A DNA stretch of 59,429 nucleotides from assembly GCA_016932575.1 (NCBI GenBank), contig JAFGCO010000039.1, positions 1 to 59,429 of the forward strand, given 5' to 3'. The position numbers were made by a program, and so were the translations under genes. The notes under the pieces were generated by a model. The model did no database searches. It was not told the DNA's origin and saw nothing but the letters and a program-made list of their open reading frames with translations. This document shows, piece after piece, positions 5,965 through 56,194 of the stretch (position 1 is its first letter; the number at the start of each line of letters is the position of its first letter). This stretch comes from a bacterium (GTDB taxonomy: Bacteria > Zhuqueibacterota > QNDG01 > JAFGCO01).

Positions 5965-7683
5965 TTATCTGCTGACAATATCTTCTATTTCCTGGATAAT
6001 GATCCCTTGCGTCACGATATATTGATCAGCAATATCTTCTTTCCAGTACTGAACCGCTTTCTTGATGCTCGTTTTGATCTGTTTACGAAAATTATGCAGC
6101 AAATCACTCAGTTTTCTAATTTGCGAATACACCCTTGGTTTCCGAAACAGAGCAGGATGCAGCAGCAATGTCTCGAGTTCAGAAAAATGCCTGTACAATC
6201 TTTCCTCAATTTCTTCCTTTATTTCTCTTTCATTCTTCTGCATGGTTAAGACCGGACTCAGGGTAATTTCTATAGCACGTAAAACTTCATCCATCCGTTT
6301 GAGCCGCCTTAGGCAATCGATGCGATGTAACCCGAATTCCTTTTCATCGGTCTCAACCGTCTGCAGGCCGAACATTTGTTTATCAAACATCAGGACCGCC
6401 CTCAAATGTGCAACTTTCAGATGTTCTTCACCAAATAAATTAACCAGTTGTGAAAGAATCATCTTAAGCTCCCGGGCATTCCCCGGCCAATGGTACTGCC
6501 GCAGCTCTTTTATAATATCCTCTGGCAATGCTGTATCATGTTTGGTATATCTTTTCCAGAAATGTCTGGCCAATCTCGCAATATCATCCGGATGGTGCCG
6601 AAGCGCCGGCGTGGGAATTAAAAAAGAGCGCAATCGATAATACAGGTCTTCCCTGAACTGTTCCTTTCGTACCATGGAAAACAGATCCCGGTTGGTTGCT
6701 GCAATGATTCTGACATCAACATCGATCGTTTCATTGGAACCGACCTTGCGTATGGCCCCTTCATCCAGAGCTCTTAAAATCTTGGCCTGATGTCTTAATG
6801 AAAGATCTCCGATCTCATCCAGAAAAAGACTGCCCTTATCAGCATACTCCCAGACACCTTTTCTATCAATAGCATCCGTATAGATTCCTTTTTTAGATCC
6901 AAACAGCTCCGTTTCCAGCAATTCGGTCGGAATGGCACTGCAGTTAATCGCTGCGAAGTGCTTGTTTTTACGGGGACTGTAATTGTGAATATTGCGTGCC
7001 ACGACTTCCTTGCCCGTGCCTGTTTCCCCCGTAATCAGGACCGGATCATCATTTTGAGAGGCCCGCAGGATGAGTCTGCGGATCAGCTTGATTTCACGCG
7101 ACTCCCCGACATAACTCTTTCTTAAATCCTCGGGTACTTCCATATCCGATATCAACTTGAGAAGTTCCTGATAAAATTCCGACCTTTCGAGGGGCCGGCA
7201 AAGTATCTGGTACTGATCAAATAATGTTGCCTTGGACGGTGACTTGAGGCTCCCCGCAGAATCCCAGATCGTGTCAAACAGAAGGGAATCTATGCCGATA
7301 AAATAAATATTTTCTCTGTCGTTGATTTTTTTCAGTGCAGACAAATCAGTATGTATCTGCCTGTTGGCCTCTTCTATGTTTTTAAGCAGACTCTGGCAGC
7401 CCCTTTTAAACTGACCAGACAATTTATAAGAGGCCCGAATCAATGGTATCTTCTCATGCTGAAGCATGTAATCAGCCAATCTTTTCCCCTGATGCTTATG
7501 ACCCCGGTCAATCACATTATCAAGCAGTAAATGGCTCACCTCGGATTTTTTTACGACAAATATTGCGGGTGCATTTTCTTTTTTAATATTTTCAAGCGTT
7601 GTCCCGGATTCCAAGTTGAATCGATATTGAAAAAATCGATCCGAAGCGTGAAATCCTGAAATTTTCAATGATTGAATTTCCAT
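5965..7683 (-). CDS. Sigma54-activator-type AAA+ protein without a recognisable DNA-binding helix
   Basis: A 572-residue protein with AAGGTGG just before the start. Residues 1-190 are an unrecognised N-terminal domain, not a receiver domain. The central AAA+ domain (about 190-420) is that of bacterial enhancer-binding proteins: YVGES, Walker A GETGTGKE, NCSAIP, LFLDEIGDL, RIIAATNRDL, FREDLYYRL and HWPGNARELK. The sigma54-contact loop, normally GAFTGA, reads GIYTDA. The C-terminal 150 residues are helical and I see no Fis-type helix-turn-helix, which is unusual. Its gene is divergent from the ubiquitin-like operon with a 378-bp shared upstream region, so it is the likely local regulator. RtcR-like activators have the same general layout (sensor domain plus AAA+), but I cannot confirm a CARF fold here. 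Confidence 0.8.
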   Translation of the reverse strand: MEIQSLKISGFHASDRFFQYRFNLESGTTLENIKKENAPAIFVVKKSEVSHLLLDNVIDRGHKHQGKRLADYMLQHEKIPLIRASYKLSGQFKRGCQSLLKNIEEANRQIHTDLSALKKINDRENIYFIGIDSLLFDTIWDSAGSLKSPSKATLFDQYQILCRPLERSEFYQELLKLISDMEVPEDLRKSYVGESREIKLIRRLILRASQNDDPVLITGETGTGKEVVARNIHNYSPRKNKHFAAINCSAIPTELLETELFGSKKGIYTDAIDRKGVWEYADKGSLFLDEIGDLSLRHQAKILRALDEGAIRKVGSNETIDVDVRIIAATNRDLFSMVRKEQFREDLYYRLRSFLIPTPALRHHPDDIARLARHFWKRYTKHDTALPEDIIKELRQYHWPGNARELKMILSQLVNLFGEEHLKVAHLRAVLMFDKQMFGLQTVETDEKEFGLHRIDCLRRLKRMDEVLRAIEITLSPVLTMQKNEREIKEEIEERLYRHFSELETLLLHPALFRKPRVYSQIRKLSDLLHNFRKQIKTSIKKAVQYWKEDIADQYIVTQGIIIQEIEDIVSR

Positions 7684-7825
7684 TTTCCACCTTCTCGTTG
7701 TCTATTTCTTATTCTTTTATTTTATCAGAAATACATTGCCGTCAAAATCAATCGGTGTCAGGCATTCAATTATCATTTCAGCCGGCATGTCTCTCTGTTG
7801 TTGAATAAACGCTCACAGACAAGAA

Positions 7826-8022
7826 CTCAACCCCTGAAATTGTTGAGTTGTTTCTTTCTCAACAAGACAGAACTCAACCCTAAAATTAATTTTTATTGTT
7901 TCTATTGTCTTTACATGCGTTGAGTTATAAGCGGGTATACCTTTTGCGTTATTCTCAGACAAATGCTGTTGAGAAAATTACATGAAAGTTGAGAAAGTCA
8001 AAATGTTATAAAAAACTATAAT
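7826..8022 (+). promoter_or_regulatory. Regulatory region of the ubiquitin-like operon: seven GTTGAG sites, GG-N10-GC element, TATAAT box
   Basis: The hexamer GTTGAG or its complement CTCAAC occurs at 7826-7831, 7842-7847, 7858-7863, 7873-7878, 7919-7924, 7968-7973 and 7988-7993, far above chance for under 200 bp. The first two face each other as an inverted repeat (AACTCAAC...GTTGAGTT). A GG-N10-GC pair at 7934-7947 with TTGC at the -12 side fits a sigma54 promoter. A consensus TATAAT at 8017-8022 fits a sigma70 -10 with two hexamers around its -35 region. Which promoter is real cannot be decided from sequence. The first gene starts at 8062. Confidence 0.55.
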
Positions 8023-8061: not shown

Positions 8062-8517
8062 ATGTATAAAATTACTGAAAAACCGCTGCATACCGATCCA
8101 CTCACTTTCACAGATGATTTATACATCACGATTCACTCGCATAAAGACATTGTTTTTACTGAAAATCCTGATCATTCTCATTCTGTTCTGGCTTCTATTA
8201 TAAAGAATGACCGGTCAGTCTATCTGTTTAAAGACAGCAGGTTGAGTGGCTTCGACATTCTCGTTAATGGTCAAAAAGTCTTTTCTTTTACGCCACTTCC
8301 CGTGAATTGCAATATTTCAGTCTGCCATCAGGATAAAATCCATGATTTTTCCTTTGAATATACTGAGGACAGAAAAAAAACGGCTTCCACATCCTATTGT
8401 CCATATTGCTGGCTGCCTTTTGAAAAAAACGAGCAGGTGATTTGTATTAAAGGAGATGAATTCCATGAATGGTGTGCAGAAAAAATTCAGGAATTTAATA
8501 TCAAAAAAACCCATTGA
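8062..8517 (+). CDS. Small protein with C-terminal treble-clef (RING-like) zinc finger
   Basis: A 151-residue protein, first gene of the long rightward operon, with GGAG seven bases before the ATG. Residues 15-100 are rich in short beta strands and include DSRLSGFDILVNGQKV, reminiscent of an FHA-like sandwich, but this is not certain. The C-terminus holds C113-x2-C116, C128, then H135-x2-C138, a compact metal site like the prokaryotic RING/treble-clef fingers known from operons with E1, E2 and JAB genes. By analogy it may recruit targets or the E2 (an E3-like role); this is inferred from context. The next gene starts inside its 3' end (53-bp overlap), so the two are probably co-translated. 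Confidence 0.65.
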   Translation: MYKITEKPLHTDPLTFTDDLYITIHSHKDIVFTENPDHSHSVLASIIKNDRSVYLFKDSRLSGFDILVNGQKVFSFTPLPVNCNISVCHQDKIHDFSFEYTEDRKKTASTSYCPYCWLPFEKNEQVICIKGDEFHEWCAEKIQEFNIKKTH

Positions 8518-9676
8518 TAACACTGCCAGGACAGCGCGCATTCATAAAATTCCCTGGATGCAGCTTGAAAAAATCCAAAACACCATTCCCGTAGTATTGG
8601 GTTGCGGGATGAACGGGCATTATGTTATCCTTAATTTTGCAACACTGGGTGTAAAAAAAATAATCGTGATCGATCCTGACAGACTGGCTCCTACCGATCT
8701 GGGAAAAACCCTCTTTCCTGAGCATCATGCAAAAAGAAAAACACTGAAAGTCGATGCGATTAAAGCCATGGTTCGAGCTGTCAATCCATCGGTTGCTGTT
8801 TCCTCCTATCCGATGAGTTTTTCGGTTTTTCCCAAAAGCATTATTTTGGATTTGCTGAATAACGGATCGGCCATTTTTCCCATCATTACCGTGGATAACC
8901 GGAAAACAATGCTGCAGGCGAGTCTTTTCTTCCGCTTACTTAACCAGACAAGCTACATGGGCGCATTAACAGCGCCGCAGCTTAAATCTCAAGTTTATGT
9001 GTCCAGACCGGACAGTGGCTGCATTGCCTGCCTTTTTACAGAAGAGGATTATAACTTTTTATCTATTCAAGAAAGCTGTACCGGAGAAGCAGGCGCTCCG
9101 GCATTAAATTCTGTAGCTGCTCAATGCAGTTCAGGCATTATTCATGAAATATTTAAAAATTCCATGAGCCAACTGGATGCTCAGACAGAGGAATCATATA
9201 AGATCGTTTTTTCAAGTCTGCAAGGATTTGAATCTCTGAGCATTCCTGTATCCGGCCGATGCCGGTATCATTATTCATCGGCAAAAAAAGTCATCTCAGC
9301 AAAAAAAGAATGGACGCTGGATACACTTTTTAAACAGTGTTCACAAAGTCTAAATTCTGCAGAAAATGACATCCATTTAAGTTTTGCTTTGCAGGATAAG
9401 AAATATCATTTGTCGGCCCGTTGTTCGAAATGTGGCTCTGTTTTCCCTCTGGGGAGTATCGACCGACAGGGAAAACGATGTTCTCAATGCAATGAAAAGA
9501 ACAAAATACTGATACCTGATCGTTATCAGGAAAAAATAACAAAAAACGATCTGACCTTAACCTATCCCGAACAATTGAACCAAACATTGAACGATATTGG
9601 CCTGCTCAGCCGGGATGTCCTGTTTTGTTCGACATCCTCTAAAAAGAAATCAGTACTGATTCGTATTCAGAAATAA
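8465..9676 (+). CDS. E1-like (ThiF/UBA-fold) ubiquitin-activating enzyme, divergent
   Basis: A 403-residue protein. I prefer the ATG at 8465 because AGGAG lies nine bases upstream; an ATG at 8456 sits directly against it. The Rossmann nucleotide-binding motif GCGMNGH (46-52) is followed by IDPDR (about 69-73), and TVDNRK (about 142-147) takes the place of the usual DNxxxR segment. The family NLNRQ motif is replaced by TDLGKTLF, so the usual ATP-binding Arg is not evident. C186-x2-C189 and a C-terminal CxxC...CxxC pair suggest zinc binding; C205 in ESCTGE is a possible thioester cysteine. The expected role is to adenylate a small ubiquitin-like protein and pass it to the E2 encoded next. Confidence 0.85.
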   Translation: MNGVQKKFRNLISKKPIDNTARTARIHKIPWMQLEKIQNTIPVVLGCGMNGHYVILNFATLGVKKIIVIDPDRLAPTDLGKTLFPEHHAKRKTLKVDAIKAMVRAVNPSVAVSSYPMSFSVFPKSIILDLLNNGSAIFPIITVDNRKTMLQASLFFRLLNQTSYMGALTAPQLKSQVYVSRPDSGCIACLFTEEDYNFLSIQESCTGEAGAPALNSVAAQCSSGIIHEIFKNSMSQLDAQTEESYKIVFSSLQGFESLSIPVSGRCRYHYSSAKKVISAKKEWTLDTLFKQCSQSLNSAENDIHLSFALQDKKYHLSARCSKCGSVFPLGSIDRQGKRCSQCNEKNKILIPDRYQEKITKNDLTLTYPEQLNQTLNDIGLLSRDVLFCSTSSKKKSVLIRIQK

Positions 9677-9692
9677 ACCAAAGAGGAACTTT

Positions 9693-10316
9693 ATGCCCCT
9701 GAATAAAAAAGAAAGCAACCGACTAATCCAGGAAAAGGCGCTGCTGGAAAAATGGATTGTGAATCATGACCGCATTTCAATCCAGGAAACAGGTGGAAAT
9801 CCGCCGACTTTCTATCGGATTGTGTTTCAAAACATAAAAACCACAGTGGTTCAGAACAAGGAAGATCTGAAATTGACCGAACCGCCGGTAAAAATCATGC
9901 CGGTCACCATTGTCATGACGATGAATTTGGAAAACTATCCTTTATCAAAGCCGGAGATCATCATGAGCCCTGCATTTGATCAAAAAGGATCCATTCTTTA
10001 TCTGTATAATACACATGTACTTTTCTTCAGTGTTTGTTTATTTACCAGATGGCACATTCAGTTTACCCTGGTGGATGTGATCCGGAGAGCATGGAATCTT
10101 ATTACATACAATCATCATATCATGGGCCTCGACAGAAAGGACTGCCTTAATCCTTATGCGCTTGAATATTATAAGACCATGATGCTTAAACAAAAACTTT
10201 ATTTTCCATTGGATACAGCAATCGAATATGAGGACCTTTCGATGCTGCATCAACAAAAGAAAAATCCAGGTGCTTTATTTAAATTTTCAAACCTGAAGAA
10301 CGGGACAATCAAATGA
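9693..10316 (+). CDS. E2-like (UBC-fold) conjugating protein
   Basis: A 207-residue protein with GAGGAAC before the ATG. The core matches the E2 signature: MNLENYPLSKPEIIMSP (YP..PP-like strand segment, 77-93), His108, then Cys115 followed by Trp120 and a TLVDVIRRAWNLI helix. This reproduces the E2 order HPN...C...W...L..v...l. Cys115 is the predicted thioester cysteine that takes the modifier from E1. The region after residue 140 is specific to this protein. It follows the E1 gene by 16 bp and its stop overlaps the next start as ATGA, so the products are made together. The fold assignment comes from motif order only. Confidence 0.72.
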   Translation: MPLNKKESNRLIQEKALLEKWIVNHDRISIQETGGNPPTFYRIVFQNIKTTVVQNKEDLKLTEPPVKIMPVTIVMTMNLENYPLSKPEIIMSPAFDQKGSILYLYNTHVLFFSVCLFTRWHIQFTLVDVIRRAWNLITYNHHIMGLDRKDCLNPYALEYYKTMMLKQKLYFPLDTAIEYEDLSMLHQQKKNPGALFKFSNLKNGTIK

Positions 10317-10993
10317 AGCCACAGGTGGTTAAAAACCGGTCCAGAAAAACTCTATCCATGAACTTTTCATCTGCCAGGGAGACAGATCCCTGGCATTGTC
10401 TGATGCAAAATCTGGCCAACCCTGTTCGTCACGGAATAGACCTGCAGGGAAAATGTTATTTGTCCCTGGACCTGCCTTCGGAACAGGAAGAAAACACATT
10501 GGACTACTGGCTCAAAAATTTTCAAAAAGTACAGAAAGAATGGCTGTCCGGACGATGGGCCAAAGAACGAAAACTGTCCAGACAAATCAATAGAGAGACG
10601 TTCCCGATCTCACAGGAATTCAAGTGTGATGTCTATTCATACGGTCCTTTCTATACCTGTGTCTACAAATTGCCATTGTTTTTATTTCAAACAGATCAAA
10701 CCGAAACCGGGGAAAATAAAAAGACAGTCATCGCTCCTGCAGTTTACGGATGTTATGTCAATACCCGTATTCATTTCGGCAATCTTTTTTTCACACAGGC
10801 AATGGGATGGGGATTGTGTATCACTTTTTCAAGGCATTCCTGTTACAATGATCAGAATGCCATGCTTAAGCGGTTTCATGACCTGACCATTCATTTCAAA
10901 CAACAGGCATGGCCGAATATTATTTCTATGTACAATCCAAGGTTGGCCCATGAATTTCTTATCAGAAATGGGCTGAAACAAGCTGCATCTTAG
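10313..10993 (+). CDS. Unknown protein of the ubiquitin-like operon
   Basis: A 226-residue protein joined to the E2 gene through an ATGA overlap and followed 21 bp later by the small modifier-like gene. I do not recognise it. It is rich in aromatic residues and Cys, with a YGPFYTCVYKLPLF segment and a GNLFFTQAMGWGLCITF strand-rich stretch in the second half that suggest an alpha/beta or all-beta core. No signal peptide or membrane helix is visible, so it is probably cytoplasmic. Tight coupling to E2 suggests a co-factor of conjugation, such as an E2 partner or target adaptor; this is a guess from position. Confidence 0.6.
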   Translation: MKPQVVKNRSRKTLSMNFSSARETDPWHCLMQNLANPVRHGIDLQGKCYLSLDLPSEQEENTLDYWLKNFQKVQKEWLSGRWAKERKLSRQINRETFPISQEFKCDVYSYGPFYTCVYKLPLFLFQTDQTETGENKKTVIAPAVYGCYVNTRIHFGNLFFTQAMGWGLCITFSRHSCYNDQNAMLKRFHDLTIHFKQQAWPNIISMYNPRLAHEFLIRNGLKQAAS

Positions 10994-11014
10994 GCCGAAA
11001 GGAGGTGAAGTCTG

Positions 11015-11290
11015 ATGGGTGAAATCACCTTTAGACTCAGAGATGCCACTCAGTCTCATAAAGTTCAAACGGTAAAATTTCGAGAGGATGACAATCCGTT
11101 GGTGTCCGAGTTCAAAGCAAGTTTGAGTGAACAAATCGTTCGTGGTTCGGAAAGCAATGGATTGGAAGGTGAAACGATCCAACTGACCAACAAATCTCGA
11201 AACAAAGCCATTGTCGAAGGCTACTTGCGTGATCAAGTGTCTGAAGACGAAGAGGTGATCTACGGGACTGATGGTGTTGCGGGTCGGTGA
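11015..11290 (+). CDS. Candidate ubiquitin-like modifier 1
   Basis: A 91-residue protein whose start has the best ribosome binding site of the operon (AAAGGAGGTGA), as expected for a protein needed in excess. The order of secondary structure fits a beta-grasp: strand ITFRLRD, strand VQTVKFRE, helix PLVSEFKASLSEQI, then strands ETIQLTN and VEGYLRDQ. It ends GVAGR, so an Ala-Gly end with one extra Arg is present, not the classical Gly-Gly. It lies between the E2-side genes and the JAB gene, the usual place of prokaryotic ubiquitin-like genes. The call rests on size, layout and neighbours and needs a fold prediction. Confidence 0.6.
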   Translation: MGEITFRLRDATQSHKVQTVKFREDDNPLVSEFKASLSEQIVRGSESNGLEGETIQLTNKSRNKAIVEGYLRDQVSEDEEVIYGTDGVAGR

Positions 11291-11306
11291 CAGCTTGTTT
11301 TACAAC

Positions 11307-11346
11307 GCCGGGTGGCAATTCAATGAATGGGTCACCCGGCAATTTT
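11307..11346 (+). terminator. Hairpin after the modifier gene (attenuator or processing stem)
   Basis: GCCGGGTG at 11307-11314 pairs perfectly with CACCCGGC at 11333-11340; the loop can form an inner ATTC/GAAT stem. AATTTT follows. It lies 16 bp after the modifier-like gene and before the JAB gene. The T-run is short, so partial termination or protection of the upstream mRNA end is more likely than a full stop. It would make the modifier more abundant than downstream products. Confidence 0.55.
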
Positions 11347-11387
11347 AAAAATTAACACATAACGTCATCCTTATAACCGGGGGCATC

Positions 11388-12488
11388 ATGAACCAGTCAG
11401 ATCATGACTATTTTGTGGATTATATTGACCGACTGCAGGTGTACAGGCAAGAAGAAACCAATACCCATTTTCTTCAATTGCATTCATATAAAATGGATCT
11501 TGGTGAAATCGCGGACTTTTGCATCTTTGAAAAGCAGGTTAAAAATGAAATACCTGACTCGGTTCGGTATATACTGAAATCCGGCCCCTCTCCGGAGATT
11601 GCCACATCAGATTCTGAAAAACAATCATATGGGGATCTGTTAAACGAGATTCAGATACAGATAATGTTTAAAAATCGGGGAAAACACAATATGATTGACC
11701 TCAATTCGATCAATCTGAAAACGCATGCATATTACCTCTTGAATAAAATTCAAATTCATGCCGGCCAAAACAGAATCAATCCGGTGTCTCAGGAAATTCG
11801 GCTGGTCAATCTAAAAATGAATTCGGTCATTGACAAATCAGACAAAACCGGGATTTTCTCTTTCAATCCAAGCCGGCAAAAAACGTTCAGATTTGATGAG
11901 AAACCGATTCCAAAGGATAATTCTCTTATCTGCTGGCAGGGGGGAACAGTGCAGGGAATGATTCCAATAGTTATCTCCAAACGCATTCTGAACATTTTTA
12001 AGGAAGCCATTCAACAGCACCACCCAAAGGAAATCGGAGGACAACTGGCAGGTCATCTGATAAAATTTCGTCATCGAAAAGCACTCATAGTGACGGATTT
12101 ATATTTTTTTAATTCAATTGGCAATGAAACCTCATTGATGATTTCAGCTGAGGAATATATTCGCACTGCCCAGCTTATCGAAAATGAAAACAAAATCATC
12201 GCAGGATGGATACATTCACATGCACTGGGTCAAAACAGCCTGTATTGTTCTTCTGTTGATATTAGCAATCATTATCAAAAATATACAATGCCTTATGCGG
12301 TGATGATGATTGCAGATGGATCTCAACTTACAAAATCCATAGAATCCGTGGGATGCGCACAATGCCCCTACAGGGCACAATGCACTTTGCCTGAAACGCT
12401 AAAGAAAAATCTTATTCCGGGCTGGACCCTTTATACATGGACACCCAATGGTTTTTTAATGCCCGCTCATGCCCATGTCTTTGAGTAG
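11388..12488 (+). CDS. JAMM/JAB-type isopeptidase 1 (AMSH-like)
   Basis: A 366-residue protein. Residues 1-185 are an unassigned N-terminal region. Residues 190-320 form a JAB/MPN metalloprotease: Glu215 in HPKEIGG, then GWIHSHALGQ with His276 and His278, then SSVD with Ser288 and Asp291. The spacing after the second His is two residues longer than the usual HxH-x7-S-x2-D, but SSVDISNHYQKY is very close to eukaryotic AMSH. All metal and catalytic residues are present. A CAQCPYRAQC cluster at 323-332 may bind zinc. It should trim the modifier precursor or remove it from targets. It follows the modifier gene in the same operon. Confidence 0.88.
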   Translation: MNQSDHDYFVDYIDRLQVYRQEETNTHFLQLHSYKMDLGEIADFCIFEKQVKNEIPDSVRYILKSGPSPEIATSDSEKQSYGDLLNEIQIQIMFKNRGKHNMIDLNSINLKTHAYYLLNKIQIHAGQNRINPVSQEIRLVNLKMNSVIDKSDKTGIFSFNPSRQKTFRFDEKPIPKDNSLICWQGGTVQGMIPIVISKRILNIFKEAIQQHHPKEIGGQLAGHLIKFRHRKALIVTDLYFFNSIGNETSLMISAEEYIRTAQLIENENKIIAGWIHSHALGQNSLYCSSVDISNHYQKYTMPYAVMMIADGSQLTKSIESVGCAQCPYRAQCTLPETLKKNLIPGWTLYTWTPNGFLMPAHAHVFE

Positions 12489-12575
12489 GCTTGATAGCAA
12501 ACTGAGCATATAAGTGTCTTTTTAACCAAGGTCAATTTTTAAAAGGACAGATGTAAAAAGAAGTGGAGGTTTGTA

Positions 12576-14162
12576 ATGGCAGAAAGCTTGTATCAGCAAA
12601 AAGAACAGATACAAGAAATAAACTGGAAAGAAGTCGAAGCCATTCTTCAGGAAAATGATGCTTTACGTAAAGAACTGAAGATCCGTGATGAAAATAAACC
12701 CCTGCATATTGCAGTCGTGGCTGAAGATTATAATCAGACAAAGTATCGAAATACCCTGATACCGCCGGCTACAAAGAATACGGATAAAATGCTGCCCCAG
12801 ATCAAAGTGATCGATCCAAGTGGAGGAGAGGTGATTGTCCCGGTTCACAATAAAATCAATCCAACATATCTGAAAAAGGGGAATACGGTTTATGTTAACG
12901 GTGATTCCCTGGTCATTGGGGCAAATGGTTTTTATGAAGGTGGAGAGGTTCTGTCATTTGAAAGAATACTGGAGGATGGCCGTATTGTTTTAAAAAGTGA
13001 ATCAAGCAATACATCAATCCTTTGCTGGCCGAGTCAATCCCTTGATACGACTGCATTAAAAAAGGGAGACGGTATCCGGCATTTGGGCTCCGTTGCATTA
13101 GAAAACGTTGGTCAATCCCTGAATCTGGATGATTTGACAATGATCCCTGAATATAAGCCTTATTCTGACATTATCGGAGATCGATGGAAAGAAATTTTCA
13201 ATATTTATTCAAGAAAAATCCAGTTGCTTTATAACCGGATTAAAAATAACACTCAAACCGGCCGAAAATATTTGAGCATCGCTCTCTGGGGATTAAATGG
13301 CAACGGGAAGACATCCGGGGCCCAGTGTATGATCTGGGATGCAGCCCAAAGATTCGGTATTTCAGATAAGAAAAGTATTATTGTTGTTAAGGCAGGTGAA
13401 ATACTCTCGAAATGGGTTGGACAAACACAAAACAACATCGCCAATATTTTTAAAAAACTCAGAGAGATCTCTGCAGAACACGGCTTTGCTATTCTAATGA
13501 TTGACGAATTTGATGCGCTCTGTCACGGAGGGGGAGGAGATACGGAAAGCTCCTGGATTGAAACTTCCATTGTGCCCCAGTGGAAAGCAGAACTGCAGGG
13601 GATGATACCCCTTGAAAATGTATTGATTATTGTCACCCTGAATGATAAACGCAATGTTGAAGCTGCCATCTTGAGAAGATTTACGGATATGGAGGTGATC
13701 GCACAACCCGAATGCGTTCCGCCACTGATGCATCATATTTTCCGTAAAGAATGGGCTGATCAAAAGTTGAATACCGACCGAATCTCAAAACCACTGATGC
13801 ATTTTCTCAAGTCACAATCCTTGGGAAAACTGCATTTTGCAAATAAACATTTTCGGGAATTCTATCCTGCTGATATCATGTGCTATGCGGATATAGAAAA
13901 TATCTGTATTGAATCCATAGAGATAGCTGAATTTGAAGAAAGACAACCCACTGAAAAAGACATACTGGCGTGTGCTCAAAAACTTTATACCGAAAAGGCA
14001 AAACGAATCCGGGTTGGTGTTGAGAATGGAGTCAGGCGCTCCAATGCGCGTAATTATTTCAATTTGTCAGATGAAGAGTTCAATCATCTTGACAGTGTCA
14101 TCCTCTCTGAAAATCAGTCGCATTCCGGTCATTTGACCGCAGATGACATGGAGGATTTATAA
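12576..14162 (+). CDS. Proteasomal/Cdc48-type AAA unfoldase (ARC/Mpa/PAN-like)
   Basis: A 528-residue protein with GTGGAGG upstream of the ATG. An N-terminal coiled coil (about 10-40) is followed by one or two OB-like beta barrels (70-180) and a single AAA module: Walker A GLNGNGKT (239-246), pore loop WVGQTQ (280-285), Walker B ILMIDEFD (306-313), sensor-1 TLND and arginine fingers in ILRRF (365-369). Coiled coil, OB and AAA in this order is the plan of ARC/Mpa and PAN, the ring ATPases that feed tagged proteins to proteasomes. No proteasome subunit is encoded here. Given the conjugation genes beside it, it probably recognises modified proteins and unfolds them. It is followed within one base by a second unfoldase gene. 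Confidence 0.82.
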   Translation: MAESLYQQKEQIQEINWKEVEAILQENDALRKELKIRDENKPLHIAVVAEDYNQTKYRNTLIPPATKNTDKMLPQIKVIDPSGGEVIVPVHNKINPTYLKKGNTVYVNGDSLVIGANGFYEGGEVLSFERILEDGRIVLKSESSNTSILCWPSQSLDTTALKKGDGIRHLGSVALENVGQSLNLDDLTMIPEYKPYSDIIGDRWKEIFNIYSRKIQLLYNRIKNNTQTGRKYLSIALWGLNGNGKTSGAQCMIWDAAQRFGISDKKSIIVVKAGEILSKWVGQTQNNIANIFKKLREISAEHGFAILMIDEFDALCHGGGGDTESSWIETSIVPQWKAELQGMIPLENVLIIVTLNDKRNVEAAILRRFTDMEVIAQPECVPPLMHHIFRKEWADQKLNTDRISKPLMHFLKSQSLGKLHFANKHFREFYPADIMCYADIENICIESIEIAEFEERQPTEKDILACAQKLYTEKAKRIRVGVENGVRRSNARNYFNLSDEEFNHLDSVILSENQSHSGHLTADDMEDL

Positions 14163-14163
14163 A

Positions 14164-16077
14164 ATGGCCAACGGTCGGACAGTGAATCATGAAAACAGAA
14201 ATTCTCTTTTTTTGTTCCGGGAAATACGGGATACCGATCGCCGTCAAGGCTATCGGGACACCTGGGCCTTGGCCAGCCAATTCAACGGTAACATTCAGGT
14301 GATAGAGCAATTGGGCATTATTGACCTCACACAGGCAGTCTATGAAAACGGGATGGAACGATGTGTGGGTATGGGCCGTGAAGTGAGAAAAGTGTTTACC
14401 ATACTCTGCCAAAGATATTCAAACACACCGCTTATCCATGGGAAAAATGGTGTGGGCAAAAGCTCCATTCCAAAACATATGGCTCACAGGATTGTTAACG
14501 GCAGGGTTATCACGCCGTTTCATACATGCCGGATTCTCAGCCTGAATCTGGCTTTGTTAACAGCAGGTGCCGGTATGCGCGGCGAGGTGGCTCAGAGGTT
14601 AAAAGATTACTTTGATATGTTAGATAAAAATCCCCATGTCATTACAGTCATTGATGAATGCCAGTTATTGGCAGCCAGAGATTTTATGGAAAGCGAAATT
14701 ATTCATTTTTTAAAAGTCAATCTGAGCAATGGAAAATACCGGTTTATCCTGATTACTGATTCAGCAGGCGTGGGTCTGATTACTGAGGATCCTGCAATAA
14801 TGGGGCGGGTATCTCCTGTTGAAATCCCCGTGCCCGGCGAACGTTCGGTGATACGAATCGTTCAAGGGGCAGTCTTGCCGGAATTGGAGCGGCATTATAA
14901 AATAAAAATACCGAAAAATCTGATTGAAACTGCTTACAAACTGAGCGAAGAAGTTTTATCGTATGACAGGGAACAACCGGCAAGATGTATCAAATTCATG
15001 GATACTTCCATGGCCCATACAAGCTATATTAAAACTCTCAGGAGATTGTCCGATTCAAGTTCAACTTTACTGCGGGAAGAAAACCTCGAAACGACAGCAA
15101 AGGAATTTCTGCAATCGAGCCGCTCAACACTCTGTCAGAAAGAGCGTTTAAGAAGACTCGACATACTCGCAGACACATTAAAAAAACAGATTATTGGTCA
15201 GGATGACATTATTGACGCAATTGTCCAGGATTTACAACTGAAGTTTCATCAGAAACCATCCAGGATTGGTGCCTATTTTCTCTACGGGGATAGTGGTACT
15301 GGCAAAACTGAACTTGCCACACAAATCGGGATTCAACTGAGCGGGGAACGGTTCTGGGTAAGAATTGATTGTTCCCAGCTCATTGATCGATGGGCAGTCA
15401 CCACACTCCTTGGAAGCTATCCGGGATTAATATACAGTGACAGAAGCTCGATGTTCAGCAGAATTCGCTTCAGCCCTTATACAACATTTATTTTTGATGA
15501 ACTGGAAAAAGCCCATCCGGAAGTGATCATGCTGTTTTTACAGATACTTCAGCCACCGTACATTATCCGGGACAATCGAGGTGTAAAACTGGATTTTTCA
15601 AGATCACTCTTTTTTTTCACAAGCAACGTTGCACATACGGATCAGGACAAGCAGACTTTTGGATTTCAAAATTCAAATAACATAAGTTTCAAAAAGGATG
15701 GTCTTCAATTGACAGCCTATTTTCCAAATGAATTTCTTGGCCGGCTTCATAATAAAATTTATCGTTTTCATCCGATCGATAGAATGAAGGATCTTCTTCT
15801 GATATGTGACCTTGAAATTGCCAAACTGGCAAAACGATGGGATGTTGAATTGCTGATAACAGAAAAGGCAAAAAGATCCCTCATTGATTCATCTCTTTGC
15901 AAGCGATTTGGAGTCAGGGGGATACAATCCGAGTTGTCACGCGTCATTGAACCTCAGCTTTGCAGGATCTTAAAAAATCGTTTTGATCGTATGGAAGGCA
16001 GGAGAGGAGAACCAATAATCCAAAAAATAAAAATTATCAAGAGTGGAAATCAGGTCAAACTGATTTCCGGAAAATAA
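14164..16077 (+). CDS. ClpA/ClpB-like double AAA+ unfoldase without N-domain
   Basis: A 637-residue protein. The ATG at 14164 has GGAGG nine bases upstream inside the preceding gene; an ATG at 14143 would overlap it with no signal. Two AAA+ modules are seen. D1 has Walker A GKNGVGKS (93-100) and Walker B TVIDECQ (161-167). D2 has IGQDD, Walker A GDSGTGKT (375-382), FIFDELEKAHPE (442-453), TSNVAH and VRGIQSEL. There is no Clp N-domain and no ClpB middle coiled coil, so it is shorter than Clp proteins. FGF (499-501) lies where ClpA/ClpC carry the [IVL]GF/L loop that docks ClpP. It may hand tagged substrates to ClpP or disassemble complexes. Confidence 0.82.
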   Translation: MANGRTVNHENRNSLFLFREIRDTDRRQGYRDTWALASQFNGNIQVIEQLGIIDLTQAVYENGMERCVGMGREVRKVFTILCQRYSNTPLIHGKNGVGKSSIPKHMAHRIVNGRVITPFHTCRILSLNLALLTAGAGMRGEVAQRLKDYFDMLDKNPHVITVIDECQLLAARDFMESEIIHFLKVNLSNGKYRFILITDSAGVGLITEDPAIMGRVSPVEIPVPGERSVIRIVQGAVLPELERHYKIKIPKNLIETAYKLSEEVLSYDREQPARCIKFMDTSMAHTSYIKTLRRLSDSSSTLLREENLETTAKEFLQSSRSTLCQKERLRRLDILADTLKKQIIGQDDIIDAIVQDLQLKFHQKPSRIGAYFLYGDSGTGKTELATQIGIQLSGERFWVRIDCSQLIDRWAVTTLLGSYPGLIYSDRSSMFSRIRFSPYTTFIFDELEKAHPEVIMLFLQILQPPYIIRDNRGVKLDFSRSLFFFTSNVAHTDQDKQTFGFQNSNNISFKKDGLQLTAYFPNEFLGRLHNKIYRFHPIDRMKDLLLICDLEIAKLAKRWDVELLITEKAKRSLIDSSLCKRFGVRGIQSELSRVIEPQLCRILKNRFDRMEGRRGEPIIQKIKIIKSGNQVKLISGK

Positions 16078-16119
16078 CTGCTCAATGAATCTGTATTTTA
16101 CTAAGAAAGGAGTGATGAA

Positions 16120-16176
16120 ATGAATTCCATCATTCTCAGACATCATCTTAAAAAACAACAGGCATTACTGAAATAA
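16120..16176 (+). CDS. Possible 18-residue microprotein or leader peptide
   Basis: AAAGGAG at 16106-16112 sits seven bases before an ATG that opens an 18-codon frame ending with TAA (a basic, amphipathic peptide with HHLKKQQ in the middle). It lies in the 130-bp gap between the Clp-like gene and the next operon gene. The ribosome binding site is as good as that of any large gene here. It may be a leader peptide that controls the downstream genes, or chance. Confidence 0.35.
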   Translation: MNSIILRHHLKKQQALLK

Positions 16177-16206
16177 CAATAAAACCAGAATATCGGAGGT
16201 AATCCC

Positions 16207-16596
16207 ATGAAAAAGCAACAGGAAAAAGAAGCATCCAAAACTGTAAAAGTGTCTGTTCGGGCGGGTTTTGGAAGCAAACTAAGCACGCAATTGCCCCTAA
16301 ACAGTCTGCAAAATACTTCTGTGAGCGATTTGGCCAAAGTAGTCGTCAAGGAACATATCAAAAGTCCGGATATCTCAGCACAAAAGGCAGCCGAATCACT
16401 GAATGACATTTTGCAGGATCCTTTCTCTGATATCGATATGCGTATGCATACGCAGAATGAGGTTATCCCTGTCTCGAGCGATGTTGAACACGAAAAAATC
16501 CGGAATCTGATTAATGAGAAAAAACTTCATTCAGATGATATCATGGAATTTGAATTGGCAGCATCAAGAATGGCCAGAGGGGGCCATGATCAATGA
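16207..16596 (+). CDS. Candidate ubiquitin-like modifier 2 with ARGG-HDQ end
   Basis: A 129-residue protein with GGAGG before the ATG. It opens with a Lys/Gln-rich tail (1-11), then strand TVKVSVRAG, strand KLSTQLPL and helix SVSDLAKVVVKEH, the start of a beta-grasp pattern. It closes with EFELAASRMARGGHDQ: Gly125-Gly126 after an Arg, as in ubiquitin (LRLRGG), followed by a three-residue tail that an isopeptidase would have to remove. The middle part is longer and more helical than in ubiquitin. Its stop overlaps the next start (ATGA). A JAB and a full E1 gene follow, consistent with its being their substrate. It could instead be an unrelated small helical protein. Confidence 0.5.
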   Translation: MKKQQEKEASKTVKVSVRAGFGSKLSTQLPLNSLQNTSVSDLAKVVVKEHIKSPDISAQKAAESLNDILQDPFSDIDMRMHTQNEVIPVSSDVEHEKIRNLINEKKLHSDDIMEFELAASRMARGGHDQ

Positions 16597-18047
16597 GTTC
16601 ACAATTTCCGGAAATACCATTATTCGAAACATTAGAAATACTGCTGCATAAAGATGAACCGTTATTTTTATCGAATGATACAATATATGAATTGATAAAA
16701 TATTCAATCCCCAATACATCTGCCAGGCCATTGAATATTGTCCTGACTTCCGGTTCTGTACAGGACTGTATTCGAAATGACATGAAGCAAGTATTGAAAA
16801 CACTTCTTCATTCTATCCTGAAAGAATGGAATATTGATGAATGCTTTTTTGAGGACTTATCTCTCTATTCCTTTCTTTCAGAGATTGAAAAACGTATGTG
16901 TGAAATTGCCGCCTGCAGAAAGTTTAAAAAAACAATTCAGCTGGATCTGCTAGAGTCACTTCAAATTCAGGAACATGACATCCAAAATATCAGAATGTTT
17001 CAGAGTGAAACTGAATCCGCTTTGAATAAAATATCACAAAAATATCATTCAGGATTCAATTACCTCCTTAAGAATTTGTGGATTGAAAACCTGTTTGTTT
17101 ATCAGCTGCCGCACGATGAAAGCCTTTATATGCAGCAGGTCTTAAATGACATGAAGGCTTTAATATCAAATAACATGAATGATTTGATGGGCATGCTGTA
17201 TCAACGGGAAATGATACCTGAATTTCTTCGCGGGCGAAGAATGCACCGATATATCATCGGGCTTCTTGAGCAGGACAAATCATTCCTCACAAATCTCAAA
17301 TCTTCCAACCGGATGCTGAAAAGGGCAAAGAAAAAAATCAAAATGAAGGAAATGCCGAACATGTCGCTTGACATATTCAGAAAACAATTTTACAGAAAAG
17401 TGCAGAAACAATGTCAAAAAATGAAGGCAGAATTCCTTACTGAAAAAACAATGATCAGACAACTTCGTTATATGAGACAAATCCTGAAGCAAATGAATTC
17501 AATGCATATCAGCCTCATGACTGAATATGGGCAATTTCAATGCGGTCCGTTTGAGATCCGATATAATGGCCGGGGACAGTTTCATTTTGGCTACCATACA
17601 GGCCAATATATCATGCAGGATGGAGATGAACCGTTTTCCCAATACTATCTTTTTGATGATGCCTATGTTGCTGTTCCCTTAACCAAAAAAGATATTAAAA
17701 GAGGCTATTTGGGATCGAGCATACCTCCGCCTGTTGTGGTCAATTCATATGGCCCTCATCCGTTTCTCCAGAATCCGCAAACAAAAAACCAGGTGATCTG
17801 TCTGGGAGACACCGCTGTATCAGAGTTGGTTGACAAGAGACATCCACTTGTGGACAGGGTCATGAATGCCATATTAATGGGAGTAAAAGTCATGCGTGAA
17901 GGGCATCATATGAAGAATAAAAATTCCTATTATTTCAAGCTGTCTGACCCGATTTTCAGTACAAGACGCATCGATAAAAAAGGGCTGAAGACATATGCTG
18001 AAAACAGTTTTATCTCAAAATATCATAAAAAACCAAGGGGCATATAA
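16593..18047 (+). CDS. Unknown operon protein, possible second E2-like domain
   Basis: A 484-residue protein coupled to both neighbours (ATGA overlap upstream; the next ATG follows its stop directly). Residues 1-310 are mainly helical with a Lys/Met-rich coiled segment at 240-300. Residues 315-440 are strand-rich and hold an E2-like string: IPPPVVVNSYGPHPFL (377-392), then NQVICLGD with Cys403, then a helix VDRVMNAILMGVKVM. This mirrors the E2 order pP.v.f...HPN...G.iCl...helix. If correct, Cys403 would be the thioester cysteine of a second conjugation cascade with the JAB and E1 downstream. Otherwise it is an unknown scaffold. No membrane segments are seen. Confidence 0.5.
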   Translation: MSSQFPEIPLFETLEILLHKDEPLFLSNDTIYELIKYSIPNTSARPLNIVLTSGSVQDCIRNDMKQVLKTLLHSILKEWNIDECFFEDLSLYSFLSEIEKRMCEIAACRKFKKTIQLDLLESLQIQEHDIQNIRMFQSETESALNKISQKYHSGFNYLLKNLWIENLFVYQLPHDESLYMQQVLNDMKALISNNMNDLMGMLYQREMIPEFLRGRRMHRYIIGLLEQDKSFLTNLKSSNRMLKRAKKKIKMKEMPNMSLDIFRKQFYRKVQKQCQKMKAEFLTEKTMIRQLRYMRQILKQMNSMHISLMTEYGQFQCGPFEIRYNGRGQFHFGYHTGQYIMQDGDEPFSQYYLFDDAYVAVPLTKKDIKRGYLGSSIPPPVVVNSYGPHPFLQNPQTKNQVICLGDTAVSELVDKRHPLVDRVMNAILMGVKVMREGHHMKNKNSYYFKLSDPIFSTRRIDKKGLKTYAENSFISKYHKKPRGI

Positions 18048-18998
18048 ATGAACGCAAATCAAAAAAAGAAAAGACGGACAAAATCAAAAAAACAAGCGAT
18101 CCTTTGGATGACTGATTTTGCCAAAAAAAAACTCGACGGCTATGCTTCGATTGCAAACCGGGATGAATTTATGGTAATATTGCTTGGCCAAAAAAACAAC
18201 AAAGACGTGGTCGCCGATGTATTTTTGTTATATGACCAGACAATCGGATGCGGTTCTGTTAAAGTCTCCGGACGGGGGATCAATCAATCTCTCTGGGAAC
18301 TGCAGGATAAATATCCTGAAGAAAAATGGGAAATCCTGGGCTGGTCTCACGGACACGGAGATATGGATGTATTTCATTCTTCGATTGATGATGAAAATAC
18401 CCGGGAAATCTTTCTCGAACAACTGGCACCTGTTCGAATGGTTGTTAAAAACCTTGTTTCCCAAATGGAACTGTCAATGTGTGATAATAACCCGTATATG
18501 TATACCGATAACCGCGGCAGTTATCTGAAGTTTACGGATTTAACGCAAAAATCACTTCCTGCGACTATCAAGATGGAAAAACATACGCCATTTTATACAG
18601 GCTGGATATTCTCACTGGTCACCAACGCAAAACACCAATATTATGCAGAACGGTTTAGCAAACACTGGTGCAAAGAATGCAACCGGGTGGTAATTAAGCA
18701 AACTCAAATGACAGTGAAATTTTTAAAAACTCCATCTTCATGGAAACTCGATCTTTCAGATCTTGAGCGGGAGTTTTATGAAAAGACTGAAAGGTACAGA
18801 ATGGGCATTTCATACGGAAACTGGAATATTCATTATATGGTTGGCAATCAGCGGGGAAAATCAGGCAGTGAGAATATCCCCATGTCCTGTGACAATGAAA
18901 ACAGCCTGATTGATTTGTCCTCATGTGATGGATGTTACCGTTTTTCATATTTAAAAGGAGACAAAAATGGACAGGCTCCATCGTCAGAGGATCATTAA
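18048..18998 (+). CDS. JAMM/JAB-type isopeptidase 2
   Basis: A 316-residue protein that starts on the base after the preceding stop codon. After a Lys-rich N-terminus, the JAB domain (18-150) has Glu40 in RDEFMV and GWSHGHGD with His101 and His103, then HSSIDDEN with Ser111 and Asp114: a canonical HxH-x7-S-x2-D site. The second half has a WCKECNRV Cys pair near residue 210 and lacks recognised domains. It differs strongly from JAB 1, so the locus carries two unlike proteases, probably for two modifiers or for processing versus removal. Its 3' end overlaps the following E1 gene by 32 bp. Confidence 0.87.
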   Translation: MNANQKKKRRTKSKKQAILWMTDFAKKKLDGYASIANRDEFMVILLGQKNNKDVVADVFLLYDQTIGCGSVKVSGRGINQSLWELQDKYPEEKWEILGWSHGHGDMDVFHSSIDDENTREIFLEQLAPVRMVVKNLVSQMELSMCDNNPYMYTDNRGSYLKFTDLTQKSLPATIKMEKHTPFYTGWIFSLVTNAKHQYYAERFSKHWCKECNRVVIKQTQMTVKFLKTPSSWKLDLSDLEREFYEKTERYRMGISYGNWNIHYMVGNQRGKSGSENIPMSCDNENSLIDLSSCDGCYRFSYLKGDKNGQAPSSEDH

Positions 18999-20271
18999 TG
19001 GATGGGTCCAGTCCTATCTGAGTGAATCCCAAATCCATGTTCTTGTTTCAGAAGAAACAAATCCGCTTTTACTGGATGCGCTTATCAAGGGATTCATCAT
19101 GATAGGTATGGGAGCGGTTCATCTGATTTGCGACAGGCCAATTTTTCATTGTGATGACTACAGGGCATTTGCAAATGCCATCCAGTCATTGACAGCAATT
19201 GACAGTGAAAGCAATCCTGATCAACATTCGGATTGTATTGTGGATTTATGTAATACGTATAATGAGTCTGCAAGATTAAACCGGATGAAAGGCGGATCAA
19301 AGGAAATCCTGGCTTTTATGAATAATGAAAAGGTACTATGGACCACAGGAGATCAAACCGGCCCGATGATACATGCAGTGAATAAAATTGAACAGGCGGT
19401 TTTAGAACCCGCCTCATTGAGCCTTTTTCTCGCCGGAGCAGTTCTTGCAGAAGTGGTCCGGAAGCTGATGCCCCTGGAAAAATGGAAACACAGTGAAATG
19501 CAGCATGATGTGCATTTTCCATTACTCACAGCCACTGCATCGGACGAAACATATCATCCGCGGTATCCCTCTATTGCTGTCATTGGTGCGGGGGCTCTGG
19601 GGAACTGGTTTCTTTATGCCCTCCTCGATGAAGCCATGCTCCTTGGAGTATCAGAAATCATCCTTATCGATAATGACAGTGTTGATCCGACGAATCTCAA
19701 CCGGCAGGTTTTTTTCACCCATGAGGACACGAATAAGTACAAGGCAGAAGTCATAGCAGAAAAAATTGGTCAATTATACCCCGGATTGACTGTGATCCCG
19801 ATAACCAGCCGCGTAGAAGATGTAACGTTTTTTGACCGTAAAAAACTCAACCCTTCCATTCTGATCTCCTGCCTTGATTCATGGAAAGCCAGGGCGATTG
19901 TCAATGAAATTGCCAAAATCAAGGGCATTCCATTGATCAATGGAGGCTCTGATCCCTATTCATGCAATGCTTATGGTTTTTTTCCGGGTCTTTCATGTTG
20001 TCTGGACTGTGCTATCGGCATCAATGCCAAAACAGAGTTGGAGACCCATGCGGCTTCGTGCCGGGACGCCGAACCCAGTGTGGTCTTTACCAATATGATC
20101 GCAGCCGGCCTGATGCTCTGGCTGATGCAGCATCCCCGACAGTCATGTTCGGGTCTGCTGCAATATGATTTAACCCAGCCTGAACGTATTGGAACCATCG
20201 ATCTCCGTATGAAAAACGAAAATTGCCGTTGTTTAACACTAAAAACGGGAAATATTGAGGTGCTTTCATGA
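18967..20271 (+). CDS. E1-like enzyme 2 with canonical adenylation domain
   Basis: A 434-residue protein; AAAAGGAG stands six bases before the ATG. Residues 196-430 form a full ThiF/E1 adenylation domain: GAGALGN (207-213), IDNDSVDPTNLNRQ (234-247), Lys-rich crossover, CLD (302-304), zinc pair C345/C348, and Cys365 in AASCRD followed by PSVVFTN, a likely thioester cysteine. Residues 20-60 read like a worn Rossmann start (IHVLVSEE...IGMGAVHLICD), so the protein may be an inactive-plus-active pair in one chain, as in eukaryotic UBA1. It is the last gene of the rightward operon and probably works with JAB 2, the 484-residue protein and modifier 2. Confidence 0.9.
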   Translation: MDRLHRQRIINGWVQSYLSESQIHVLVSEETNPLLLDALIKGFIMIGMGAVHLICDRPIFHCDDYRAFANAIQSLTAIDSESNPDQHSDCIVDLCNTYNESARLNRMKGGSKEILAFMNNEKVLWTTGDQTGPMIHAVNKIEQAVLEPASLSLFLAGAVLAEVVRKLMPLEKWKHSEMQHDVHFPLLTATASDETYHPRYPSIAVIGAGALGNWFLYALLDEAMLLGVSEIILIDNDSVDPTNLNRQVFFTHEDTNKYKAEVIAEKIGQLYPGLTVIPITSRVEDVTFFDRKKLNPSILISCLDSWKARAIVNEIAKIKGIPLINGGSDPYSCNAYGFFPGLSCCLDCAIGINAKTELETHAASCRDAEPSVVFTNMIAAGLMLWLMQHPRQSCSGLLQYDLTQPERIGTIDLRMKNENCRCLTLKTGNIEVLS

Positions 20272-54233: not shown

Positions 54234-54239
54234 GAGTTT

Positions 54240-54268
54240 AATATATAAAAGTATAGACAAATTGTCAA
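54240..54268 (-). promoter_or_regulatory. Sigma70-type promoter giving a leaderless mRNA
   Basis: Read on the minus strand, TTGACA (54268-54263), 17 bp and TATATT (54245-54240). The ATG of the ATPase gene starts at 54233, so the expected transcription start falls on or next to the start codon. No ribosome binding site is present there, in agreement. Confidence 0.65.
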
Positions 54269-54564
54269 TATGATTATCAATTTGTCCAAGATCTTCATGG
54301 TGTTGCAAGAGTAAACAGCATTTCTGTTAAAAAATGTTGGAAAGTATGAATCCCTAACGGAAAAAAGCCCATGTTAAAAAAACACAGGCTTTTCGCAGCC
54401 TCCCCAGCAATTCAGATAACAAATCAACTGATTGAAGACTTGACAAAAATATATGCTCTACAAGCTTTTATCTCAGTAGAAAAAATCAAGTGGAAACATA
54501 TTCAGAGCAAAGTATATACCTAATAATTGCCTTACGGGTAATAAACAATATATAAGGTAGTATA

Positions 54565-54855
54565 ATGAGTCTAAAGACACGGATTGAAAAGCTGGAAAAA
54601 TCGACAAATATAAATCATGATGATTATCCTGGTATCAGATTGATACTTTATCCCAGTCCTGAGAATATAGATTATGATAAATGTTTGAAATATAAAAAAC
54701 ACAAAGCTGAAACAGCGGGAGATTATTTCGGATTACTCATTATTAATTGTATTGGATGTGAGGAAGCATGTAAATACGCTTTTGATGGTAAGGATATGGG
54801 TATTGAAGAACGCTCTAAAAAAGCAAAAGAGTATTGGGATTCTTTAAAAGATTGA
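54565..54855 (+). CDS. Small unknown protein with CxxC-x3-CKY motif (1)
   Basis: A 96-residue acidic/basic protein with AAGGTAG before the ATG. It starts KTRIEKLEK, a short coiled coil, and has NCIGCEEACKYAF near residue 65. The same ends-of-protein plan and the C-x2-C-x3-CKY motif recur in the protein at 55136-55405, so the two are distant paralogues. No known family recognised. It opens the A+T-rich region at the right end. Confidence 0.6.
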   Translation: MSLKTRIEKLEKSTNINHDDYPGIRLILYPSPENIDYDKCLKYKKHKAETAGDYFGLLIINCIGCEEACKYAFDGKDMGIEERSKKAKEYWDSLKD

Positions 54856-54921
54856 AAATAAAAAGCACACATTTAAAGAAGATTAAGTTATTATAATTAA
54901 AAACTCTATAATATAGGGTGT

Positions 54922-55134: not shown

Positions 55135-55135
55135 A

Positions 55136-55405: not shown

Positions 55406-55564
55406 ATAAAAAAGTCAATTAGAGGAGCAAAAAAATTATATATAAAAAAATATTCAAGCCCTTACGGCTTAAGGCATTTTAGTTATAATTACAATACAAA
55501 TGATTATTGTTGCAATATATCTTTCAGTTATCATTCATGTAGGTATGTACATATACTGTGAAGA

Positions 55565-56041: not shown

Positions 56042-56194
56042 AGGAATATCAAATTATTAATAGAATGCTAATCAAACATAACGAAACAAAAGAAATGAAG
56101 CAATAATAAAATACAGATTCTCTTTGATTTCTACAAAGAAATTGATAGAATCAAATTAGTTGGTCTTTGACATTTTCCATCATACGAAATTTAG

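Follow-up and report, generated by a model that had tools for sequence, protein, structure and literature searches.

A candidate dual ubiquitin-like tagging operon with two AAA-type unfoldases in a KSB1 bacterium

The window analysed here, a contig of 59,429 nucleotides (JAFGCO010000039.1), comes from a bacterium of the KSB1 phylum (candidate division KSB1) whose genome, G000 hereafter, has an estimated completeness of 94.5%. Positions 8062 to 20271 of this stretch are occupied by twelve genes of a putative ubiquitin-like (Ubl) protein conjugation system, all of them oriented rightward (+ strand) and spaced by intergenic distances ranging from small overlaps to 129 bp. A first-pass annotation, made from the sequence alone, had described this region as one continuous, tightly coupled rightward operon, and the twelve open reading frames (ORFs) were confirmed at their place and strand. 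The gene order is finger protein, E1a, E2a, protein X, Ubl1, JAB1 and an ATPase with OB domains (OB-AAA), which together make up cassette 1, followed by a ClpA-like ATPase and then by Ubl2, P0010, JAB2 and E1b, which make up cassette 2. Both AT and GC skew flip sign at the operon with respect to the leftward genes flanking it on both sides.

The system was found in three of the 82 KSB1 genomes sampled, namely in G000 and in members of two other families, G058 and G046. G058 (estimated completeness 70%) carries the same twelve genes in identical order, with 26-51% identity, split over two contigs, the break falling within the Clp gene (L021, from the finger gene to Clp, and L118, from Clp to E1b). 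The locus of G046 (L022) is more distant and rearranged, with finger-E1-E2-X-Ubl-JAB-OB-AAA followed by a small protein, a 275-aa protein, JAB2, E1b and a Clp-like gene, which is of single-AAA type and the last of the locus; the small protein ends in RAG-EKGRD, and its role and that of the 275-aa protein were assigned by position. Since the twelve-gene order recurs in a second family and a homologous set in a third, the two cassettes with their two ATPases represent a conserved arrangement, and the operon is more than a one-genome curiosity. The two sub-cassettes that had been proposed (finger-E1-E2-X-Ubl1-JAB1-AAA-Clp and Ubl2-E2?-JAB2-E1) hold as units across the three families, and the same gene order, which the first-pass annotation had suggested looking for in other genomes, is present in G058. 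A contig scan with the AAA alignment returned the G058 contig as its sole match. Relatives of E1b in other KSB1 genomes (L113-L117) lie in E1-E2-JAB operons or in MoeB/cysteine-synthase type loci, all without AAA genes. Viral contigs scanned with E1a and E1b as queries yielded no relatives and plasmid searches only remote ARC/Cdc48 and ThiF matches, so a viral or mobile origin was rejected.

Cassette 1 starts with the finger protein (8062..8517, 151 aa), an E3 or adaptor candidate homologous to proteins in L021 (28% identity) and L022. In the window copy a C-terminal CPYC...HEWC leaves one CxxC...HxxC zinc site, short of the full binuclear RING, while the orthologues in L022, L053 and L054 retain a complete RING-like ligand set and that of L022 matches Prok-RING_1 at 9.5e-6. 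E1a (8456..9676, 406 aa) belongs to the ThiF/E1 family (ThiF, 4.9e-18), is 36% identical to the E1 of L021 and, when aligned with it, displays the ATP site GCGMNG, a conserved Cys208 and a zinc ribbon at the C-terminus. Neither E2a (9693..10316, 207 aa) nor Ubl1 (11015..11290, 91 aa) produced a Pfam match when scanned alone, and their identification comes from their families. UQ_con was matched by 10 of the 16 E2a family members (best 3.2e-10), the family profile retrieved E2 structures of the yeast Ubc4 type at 8e-12, and the catalytic Cys115 (VCLF) was invariant in the 16 members; by these sequence criteria, E2a is a UBC-fold E2 with a catalytic cysteine. Similarly, 11 out of 17 Ubl1 family members matched YukD (best 7.7e-17) and 7 matched ubiquitin. 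Ubl1 ends in ...TDGVAG-R, and the Ala-Gly pair near its C-terminus was invariant in 17 relatives; what comes after it is variable, from 0 to about 6 residues. The slot between E2a and Ubl1 is conserved and occupied by protein X (10313..10993, 226 aa), which has no assigned fold and no match in the Pfam scan; it is 30% identical to its L021 counterpart, those of L022 and L053 being assigned by position. JAB1 (11388..12488, 366 aa; JAB, 3.6e-4) is a JAMM isopeptidase whose Glu, HxH, Ser and Asp residues (E215/H276-S-H278/S288/D291) were invariant across six relatives.

In cassette 2, Ubl2 (16207..16596, 129 aa) was modelled with AlphaFold2 at a predicted local distance difference test (pLDDT) score of 80.6 and a predicted template modelling (pTM) score of 0.74, and the succession beta-beta-alpha-alpha-beta-beta-alpha-beta corresponds to a beta-grasp. 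Structural matches to this model included SUMO-2/3, ISG15, NEDD8 and Caldiarchaeum ubiquitin, with modest Z scores of up to 6.8, so that these matches back the fold and not a function. Profile comparison revealed no direct homology between Ubl2 and Ubl1. Ubl2 ends in ...RGG-HDQ and its G058 orthologue in ...IGG-RHAG, the Gly-Gly pair being conserved in the alignment. The retention of Ala-Gly in Ubl1 and of Gly-Gly in Ubl2, while the tails behind them vary, fits precursors trimmed by a protease. The two candidate modifiers of the first-pass annotation thus stand, and evidence was obtained for the folds on which it had staked its proposal, a beta-grasp in both small proteins and a UBC fold in E2a.

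The next gene occupies the slot expected of an E2 and encodes P0010 (16593..18047, 484 aa), whose N-terminal part has no assigned fold. Its C-terminal domain contains a conserved VVVNSYGPHPFL...ICxG motif (HPF-x11-C-x-G, with Cys403), and the orthologue in L118, 34% identical over residues 244-462, shares the pattern as VVVNSYGPHPFL...QxIC[LM]G. No PDB sequence match was found for P0010, comparison of its profile with that of E2a gave just a 15-column match at the motif, and an attempt to recognise a UBC fold by AlphaFold2 modelling of the C-terminal domain had to be discarded (pLDDT 38, an unusable model). Motif and slot make it possible that P0010 is a second E2 (E2b candidate). Of the earlier suggestion of one E2, perhaps two, the first was therefore substantiated and the second is unproven. 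JAB2 (18048..18998, 316 aa) is 37% identical to its L118 orthologue and conserves an intact JAMM motif (E40/H101-G-H103/S111/D114) together with a CxxC motif; its profile weakly matches Rpn11 (E 0.009), and the PADLOC JAB model matches at 2e-3. E1b (18967..20271, 434 aa) has about 190 N-terminal residues with no assigned fold followed by a ThiF domain (3.7e-38), is 40% identical to the L118 protein, and its profile is closest to SUMO/NEDD8 E1 structures (1.6e-18); C365 is the candidate catalytic cysteine and CLDC/CRC the candidate zinc ligands. The predicted presence of two different E1-like enzymes and two different JAMM isopeptidases was thus supported by the ThiF domains, the cysteines conserved in the alignments and the JAMM residues kept in both proteins. 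By the features tested, the operon is an E1/E2/Ubl/JAMM conjugation system.

The two remaining genes encode ATPases, for which an ARC/Mpa-type AAA and a ClpA/B-type double AAA+ identity had been anticipated and agreed with the best matches, both below cut-off. OB-AAA (12576..14162, 528 aa), a candidate unfoldase of the ARC/Mpa/Rpt kind, consists of an N-terminal region, OB domains and one AAA module (AAA, 1.9e-14; proteasomal OB PF16450, 4.1e-5, over its cut-off; PF17758, 4.9e-4, below cut-off). The best curated match was pup_AAA, the Pup-proteasome ATPase (2.8e-31, under the family cut-off), and the OB-AAA profile also matched Mpa structures. Its Walker A/B motifs and aromatic pore loop (KWVG) are as in ARC and Cdc48-type proteins, and in the ten loci where an OB-AAA lies next to JAB1, the Walker motifs were intact in most and the pore-loop aromatic was present in all. 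The ClpA-like protein (14143..16077, 644 aa) is a double AAA+ (AAA_2, 1.6e-21; ClpA, 1.5e-73, below cut-off) in which domain scans did not find a Clp N-domain. A loop in its D2 module, FGF in the window and VGF in G058, aligns with the LGF of the genome's own ClpC-type protein, and no [LIVF]-G-[FL] loop occurs at that position in the ClpB-type protein of the same genome. The resemblance of this loop to ClpP-docking loops suggests that the ATPase may bind ClpP, which is encoded elsewhere in the genome.

Relatives outside KSB1 were reached through a search with the JAB1 profile. Cassette 1, or the part of it contained in the contig, was found ending in OB-AAA at seven loci from two other phyla (L053, L095, L096, L097 and L106; L054 and L104), in all of which one or two Pup-ligase-family genes come after OB-AAA; for L053, this assignment was confirmed by both Pfam and NCBIfam. 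Five of these seven Ubl-Pup loci, which lie outside canonical Pup-proteasome loci, also contain a Pup-like ORF ending in GGE or GGQ, and L097 has a Clp-like gene after its Pup-ligase genes. Kaur et al. 2020 (PMC7159879) devote a single sentence to the coupling of a Ubl system with Pup conjugation in Thermofonsia and Planctomycetes, and we infer that the seven loci are those meant there. The Pup ligase family PF03136 was detected in two genomes with Ubl-Pup loci, G372 and G179, and in none of G000, G046 and G058, whose sequences are incomplete (G000 94.5%, G058 70%). G372 carries, in addition, a canonical ARC-Dop-Pup-PrcBA-PafA locus (L127; gene names taken from order, size and profile matches), so its Ubl-Pup locus constitutes an additional system, and G179 gave no 20S-type match and a single HslV-like one. 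In the OB-AAA tree, the G046 protein grouped with the Pup-coupled clade (support 85/86), and the window and G058 proteins, skewed in composition and lying on a long branch, could not be placed; for this reason we do not claim that the KSB1 loci descend from Pup-coupled ones, and this tree did not reveal the direction of the exchange. The same unfoldase cassette is combined with a Pup cassette in some phyla and with a second Ubl cassette plus Clp in KSB1, and the two are apparently interchangeable. Several OB-AAAs of the Ubl-Pup loci share a tyrosine-containing tail (e.g. RYLHIA) in place of GQYL. Another type of cluster (L099, L100, L101, L102, L107 and L109), common in the phylum of G372, lacks AAA genes and combines Ubl and E1 with one or two E2s, two or three different JABs and, often, a finger-like protein.

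Comparison with described systems placed the operon outside the Pup-proteasome, Bil, PRTRC and FtsH-ternary classes by the features tested. The closest likeness is to the Ubl-Pup loci, absent from the first-pass annotation, which have the same cassette 1 order ending in OB-AAA and a second tagging cassette after it; that second cassette, however, consists there of two Pup-ligase-family genes (Dop/PafA type) and a Pup-like protein, whereas in KSB1 it is Ubl2-E2?-JAB2-E1b plus the ClpA-like ATPase, with no Pup ligase found in the genome. From the Pup-proteasome system (ARC/Mpa, Dop, Pup, PafA, PrcAB; e.g. L127), to which it is linked by an OB-AAA related to ARC/Mpa, the operon differs in having no Pup ligase, no 20S-type subunit and no GQYL tail. 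Bil, Bub and CBASS Cap2-Cap3 share the E1-E2-JAB logic, and E1b weakly matched PADLOC models (BilD, 25 bits, and E1-E2 models), but Bil and CBASS Cap2-Cap3 are single-modifier systems without unfoldases, in contrast to the two sets and two ATPases found here. Bub is likewise a single-modifier system and is not known to include unfoldases. Bil, moreover, is a four-gene BilABCD system with a tandem-Ubl BilA, and none of the twelve proteins here is a tandem Ubl. The gene order also resembles what we take to be that of the PRTRC cassette (proteins A, B, C and ThiF). JAB2 and E1b of L022 matched the PRTRC models TIGR03735 and TIGR03736 (1.2e-5 and 3.3e-9), far below the curated cut-offs; in the window, PRTRC matches of E1b were sub-threshold, JAB2 matched no PRTRC model, and no PRTRC genes other than the JAB/E1 analogues were identified in the operon. 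The arrangement of a JAMM beside an OB-AAA unfoldase, with E1-E2-Ubl upstream, recalls the Rpn11-Rpt module of the 26S proteasome, but here JAB and AAA are encoded by separate genes of the operon, a 20S core is missing, and the resemblance is likely an analogy assembled from related parts and not the result of descent.

The FtsH-ternary systems, in which a Ubl tri-ligase set is accompanied by AAA+ proteins, have been described (Kaur et al. 2020, PMC7159879). These and other prokaryotic E1/E2/RING/JAB/YukD-like operons likewise have separate E1, RING-type finger, E2, Ubl and JAB genes with AAA+ nearby; here, in contrast, the AAA is ARC-like and the Ubl is separate from the E2, and Pfam scans of the twelve proteins revealed no EAD, caspase, FtsH or MoxR/vWA domains. 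The operon has precedents, since both AAA+-associated and Pup-coupled Ubl systems had already been described. The earlier statement that known bacterial Ubl operons usually lack an unfoldase overlooks the FtsH-ternary AAA+ proteins and the reported Ubl-Pup coupling (PMC7159879), to which are added here the seven loci in which cassette 1 and OB-AAA stand by Pup-ligase genes. No description of a dual-Ubl form with two unfoldases turned up in the literature searched, which did not include the central papers, and an earlier description is possible.

We propose, with a probability of roughly 0.6, that the operon encodes a dual, self-sufficient system for tagging proteins that is coupled to their ATP-driven unfolding, so that proteins would be tagged, unfolded and deconjugated; the tag-and-unfold pathway of the first-pass annotation is regarded as a reasonable inference from sequence. 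JAB1 and JAB2 would process the modifier precursors so that Ubl1 ends in Ala-Gly and Ubl2 in Gly-Gly. E1a would then activate Ubl1 and pass it to E2a, with the finger protein and perhaps X guiding its transfer to target proteins, and E1b would activate Ubl2 for the 484-aa E2b candidate. The OB-AAA ring may engage Ubl1-tagged proteins and pull them through its pore, JAB1 removing Ubl1 at the ring entrance in the manner of Rpn11 on the eukaryotic proteasome. Proteins tagged with Ubl2 would be handled by the ClpA-like ring, whose window and G058 versions could hand them over to the housekeeping ClpP. OB-AAA closes cassette 1 in every locus found and the Clp gene adjoins cassette 2 in the KSB1 loci; this position, together with the Clp-like gene after the Pup-ligase genes in L097, suggests that OB-AAA serves cassette 1 and Clp the second cassette. 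Motor roles are supported by the Walker motifs and aromatic pore loop of OB-AAA and by the FGF loop of Clp D2. An independent link to tagging for degradation comes from the seven non-KSB1 loci, where Pup-ligase genes adjoin cassette 1 and five have a Pup-like ORF as well. Also in favour of the proposal are the full sets of E1, E2 (one at least), Ubl and JAMM with their catalytic residues retained, the modifier ends that keep Ala-Gly or Gly-Gly ahead of variable tails, and the synteny with G058 together with the equivalent gene set of G046.

Several observations weigh against this proposal. The usual HPN motif is lost in the window E2a, the fold of the E2b candidate is unproven given its model of pLDDT 38, and the pairing of modifiers with enzymes comes from gene order only. 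OB-AAA ends in ...TADDMEDL, where the actinobacterial controls end in GQYL, and the pore loop is altered in the L021 protein. No protease is encoded within the operon and no 20S-type subunits were found in the KSB1 genomes, each of which gave one PF00227 match, a 182-aa protein that its size points to as HslV; with no 20S-type core found, the pathway must lead to ClpP, to HslV or to some other protease, or else end with unfolding itself. Finally, the Clp-like proteins of G046 (L022) and L097 are of single-AAA size, without D2 and its loop, so that delivery to ClpP is not general.

Some of these same features would suit a process without proteolysis, in which both AAA rings act like Cdc48 and extract Ubl-tagged proteins from complexes while the JAMMs recycle the tags. 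The lack of a protease in the operon, of a 20S-type subunit and of the GQYL tail, the Clp-like ATPase without D2 in G046, and the Ubl-Pup version of G179, a genome with just an HslV-like match, are all in line with it; we consider it doubtful given the ClpP-type loop of the window and G058 Clp proteins and the Pup-ligase genes to which cassette 1 is linked in other loci. An anti-phage or conflict function, by which conjugation would inactivate an invader protein or trigger an effector, as in Bil, CBASS Cap2/Cap3 and the FtsH-ternary systems, concerns purpose and could be compatible with either a degradative or an extracting mechanism. Most characterised bacterial E1-E2-JAB operons are defensive (for CBASS, e.g. 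PMC10097602), the spread among KSB1 genomes is patchy (3 out of 82), and the window operon has a TIR protein and a RyR-AAA protein as neighbours. These neighbours are not conserved, however, and the flanks in G058 and G046 look housekeeping by inspection; there is no effector in the operon, the PADLOC matches are low-scoring and confined to single proteins, and the viral contigs held no relatives for the two E1 queries, all of which make this function seem unlikely. Sulfur-carrier or cofactor chemistry, with the Ubls acting as ThiS/MoaD-like carriers and the other genes being incidental, could account for the ThiF domains and for the MoaD-type structure among the many matches of the Ubl2 model, but cofactor synthesis has no place for two AAA rings, two JAMMs, a UBC-fold E2 and a RING-like finger; domain scans of the operon found neither a sulfurtransferase nor a cofactor gene, and we judge this reading highly improbable.

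Within the proposed tagging and unfolding system, a more specific arrangement can be put forward only tentatively, namely that it is a bacterial ubiquitin-proteasome-like pathway whose two modifiers are orthogonal, each with its own E1, JAMM and AAA+ motor, one a Mpa/Rpt-like ring working without 20S and the other a ClpA-like motor of ClpP, and that Pup and second-Ubl cassettes are interchangeable. Eukaryotes and some archaea are characterised by Ubl tagging that is coupled to an unfoldase, and the bacterial counterpart of this, Pup, is unrelated to ubiquitin; here, E1-E2-Ubl-JAMM chemistry stands beside a Mpa/Rpt-type ring and a Clp ring. The operon makes it testable whether a bacterial ubiquitin-like tag can drive unfolding or degradation and whether a Mpa-like ring can serve a beta-grasp tag without a 20S core.

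Upstream of the operon and divergent to it, on the opposite strand (-), lie a gene for a RyR-domain AAA protein (3210-5831; PF02026, 6.5e-16) and one for a sigma-54 activator (5965-7683), a possible regulator. A sigma-54 promoter was sought upstream of the operon and no site was found there, matches in the window being at chance level. Inspection by eye of the intergenic region at 7750-8010 revealed repeated GTTGAG/CTCAAC sequences, some of them inverted, which may be an operator. Downstream, also on the - strand, are a TIR-domain protein (20978-22072) and a 789-aa phosphofructokinase-domain protein (22947-25316) with an N-terminal extension that is TIR-like by eye, a flank that is possibly a conflict-related neighbourhood. 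Farther along, the GC content of positions 54001-58000 drops to 0.28-0.30, well under the rest of the window, which may reflect a recent insertion.

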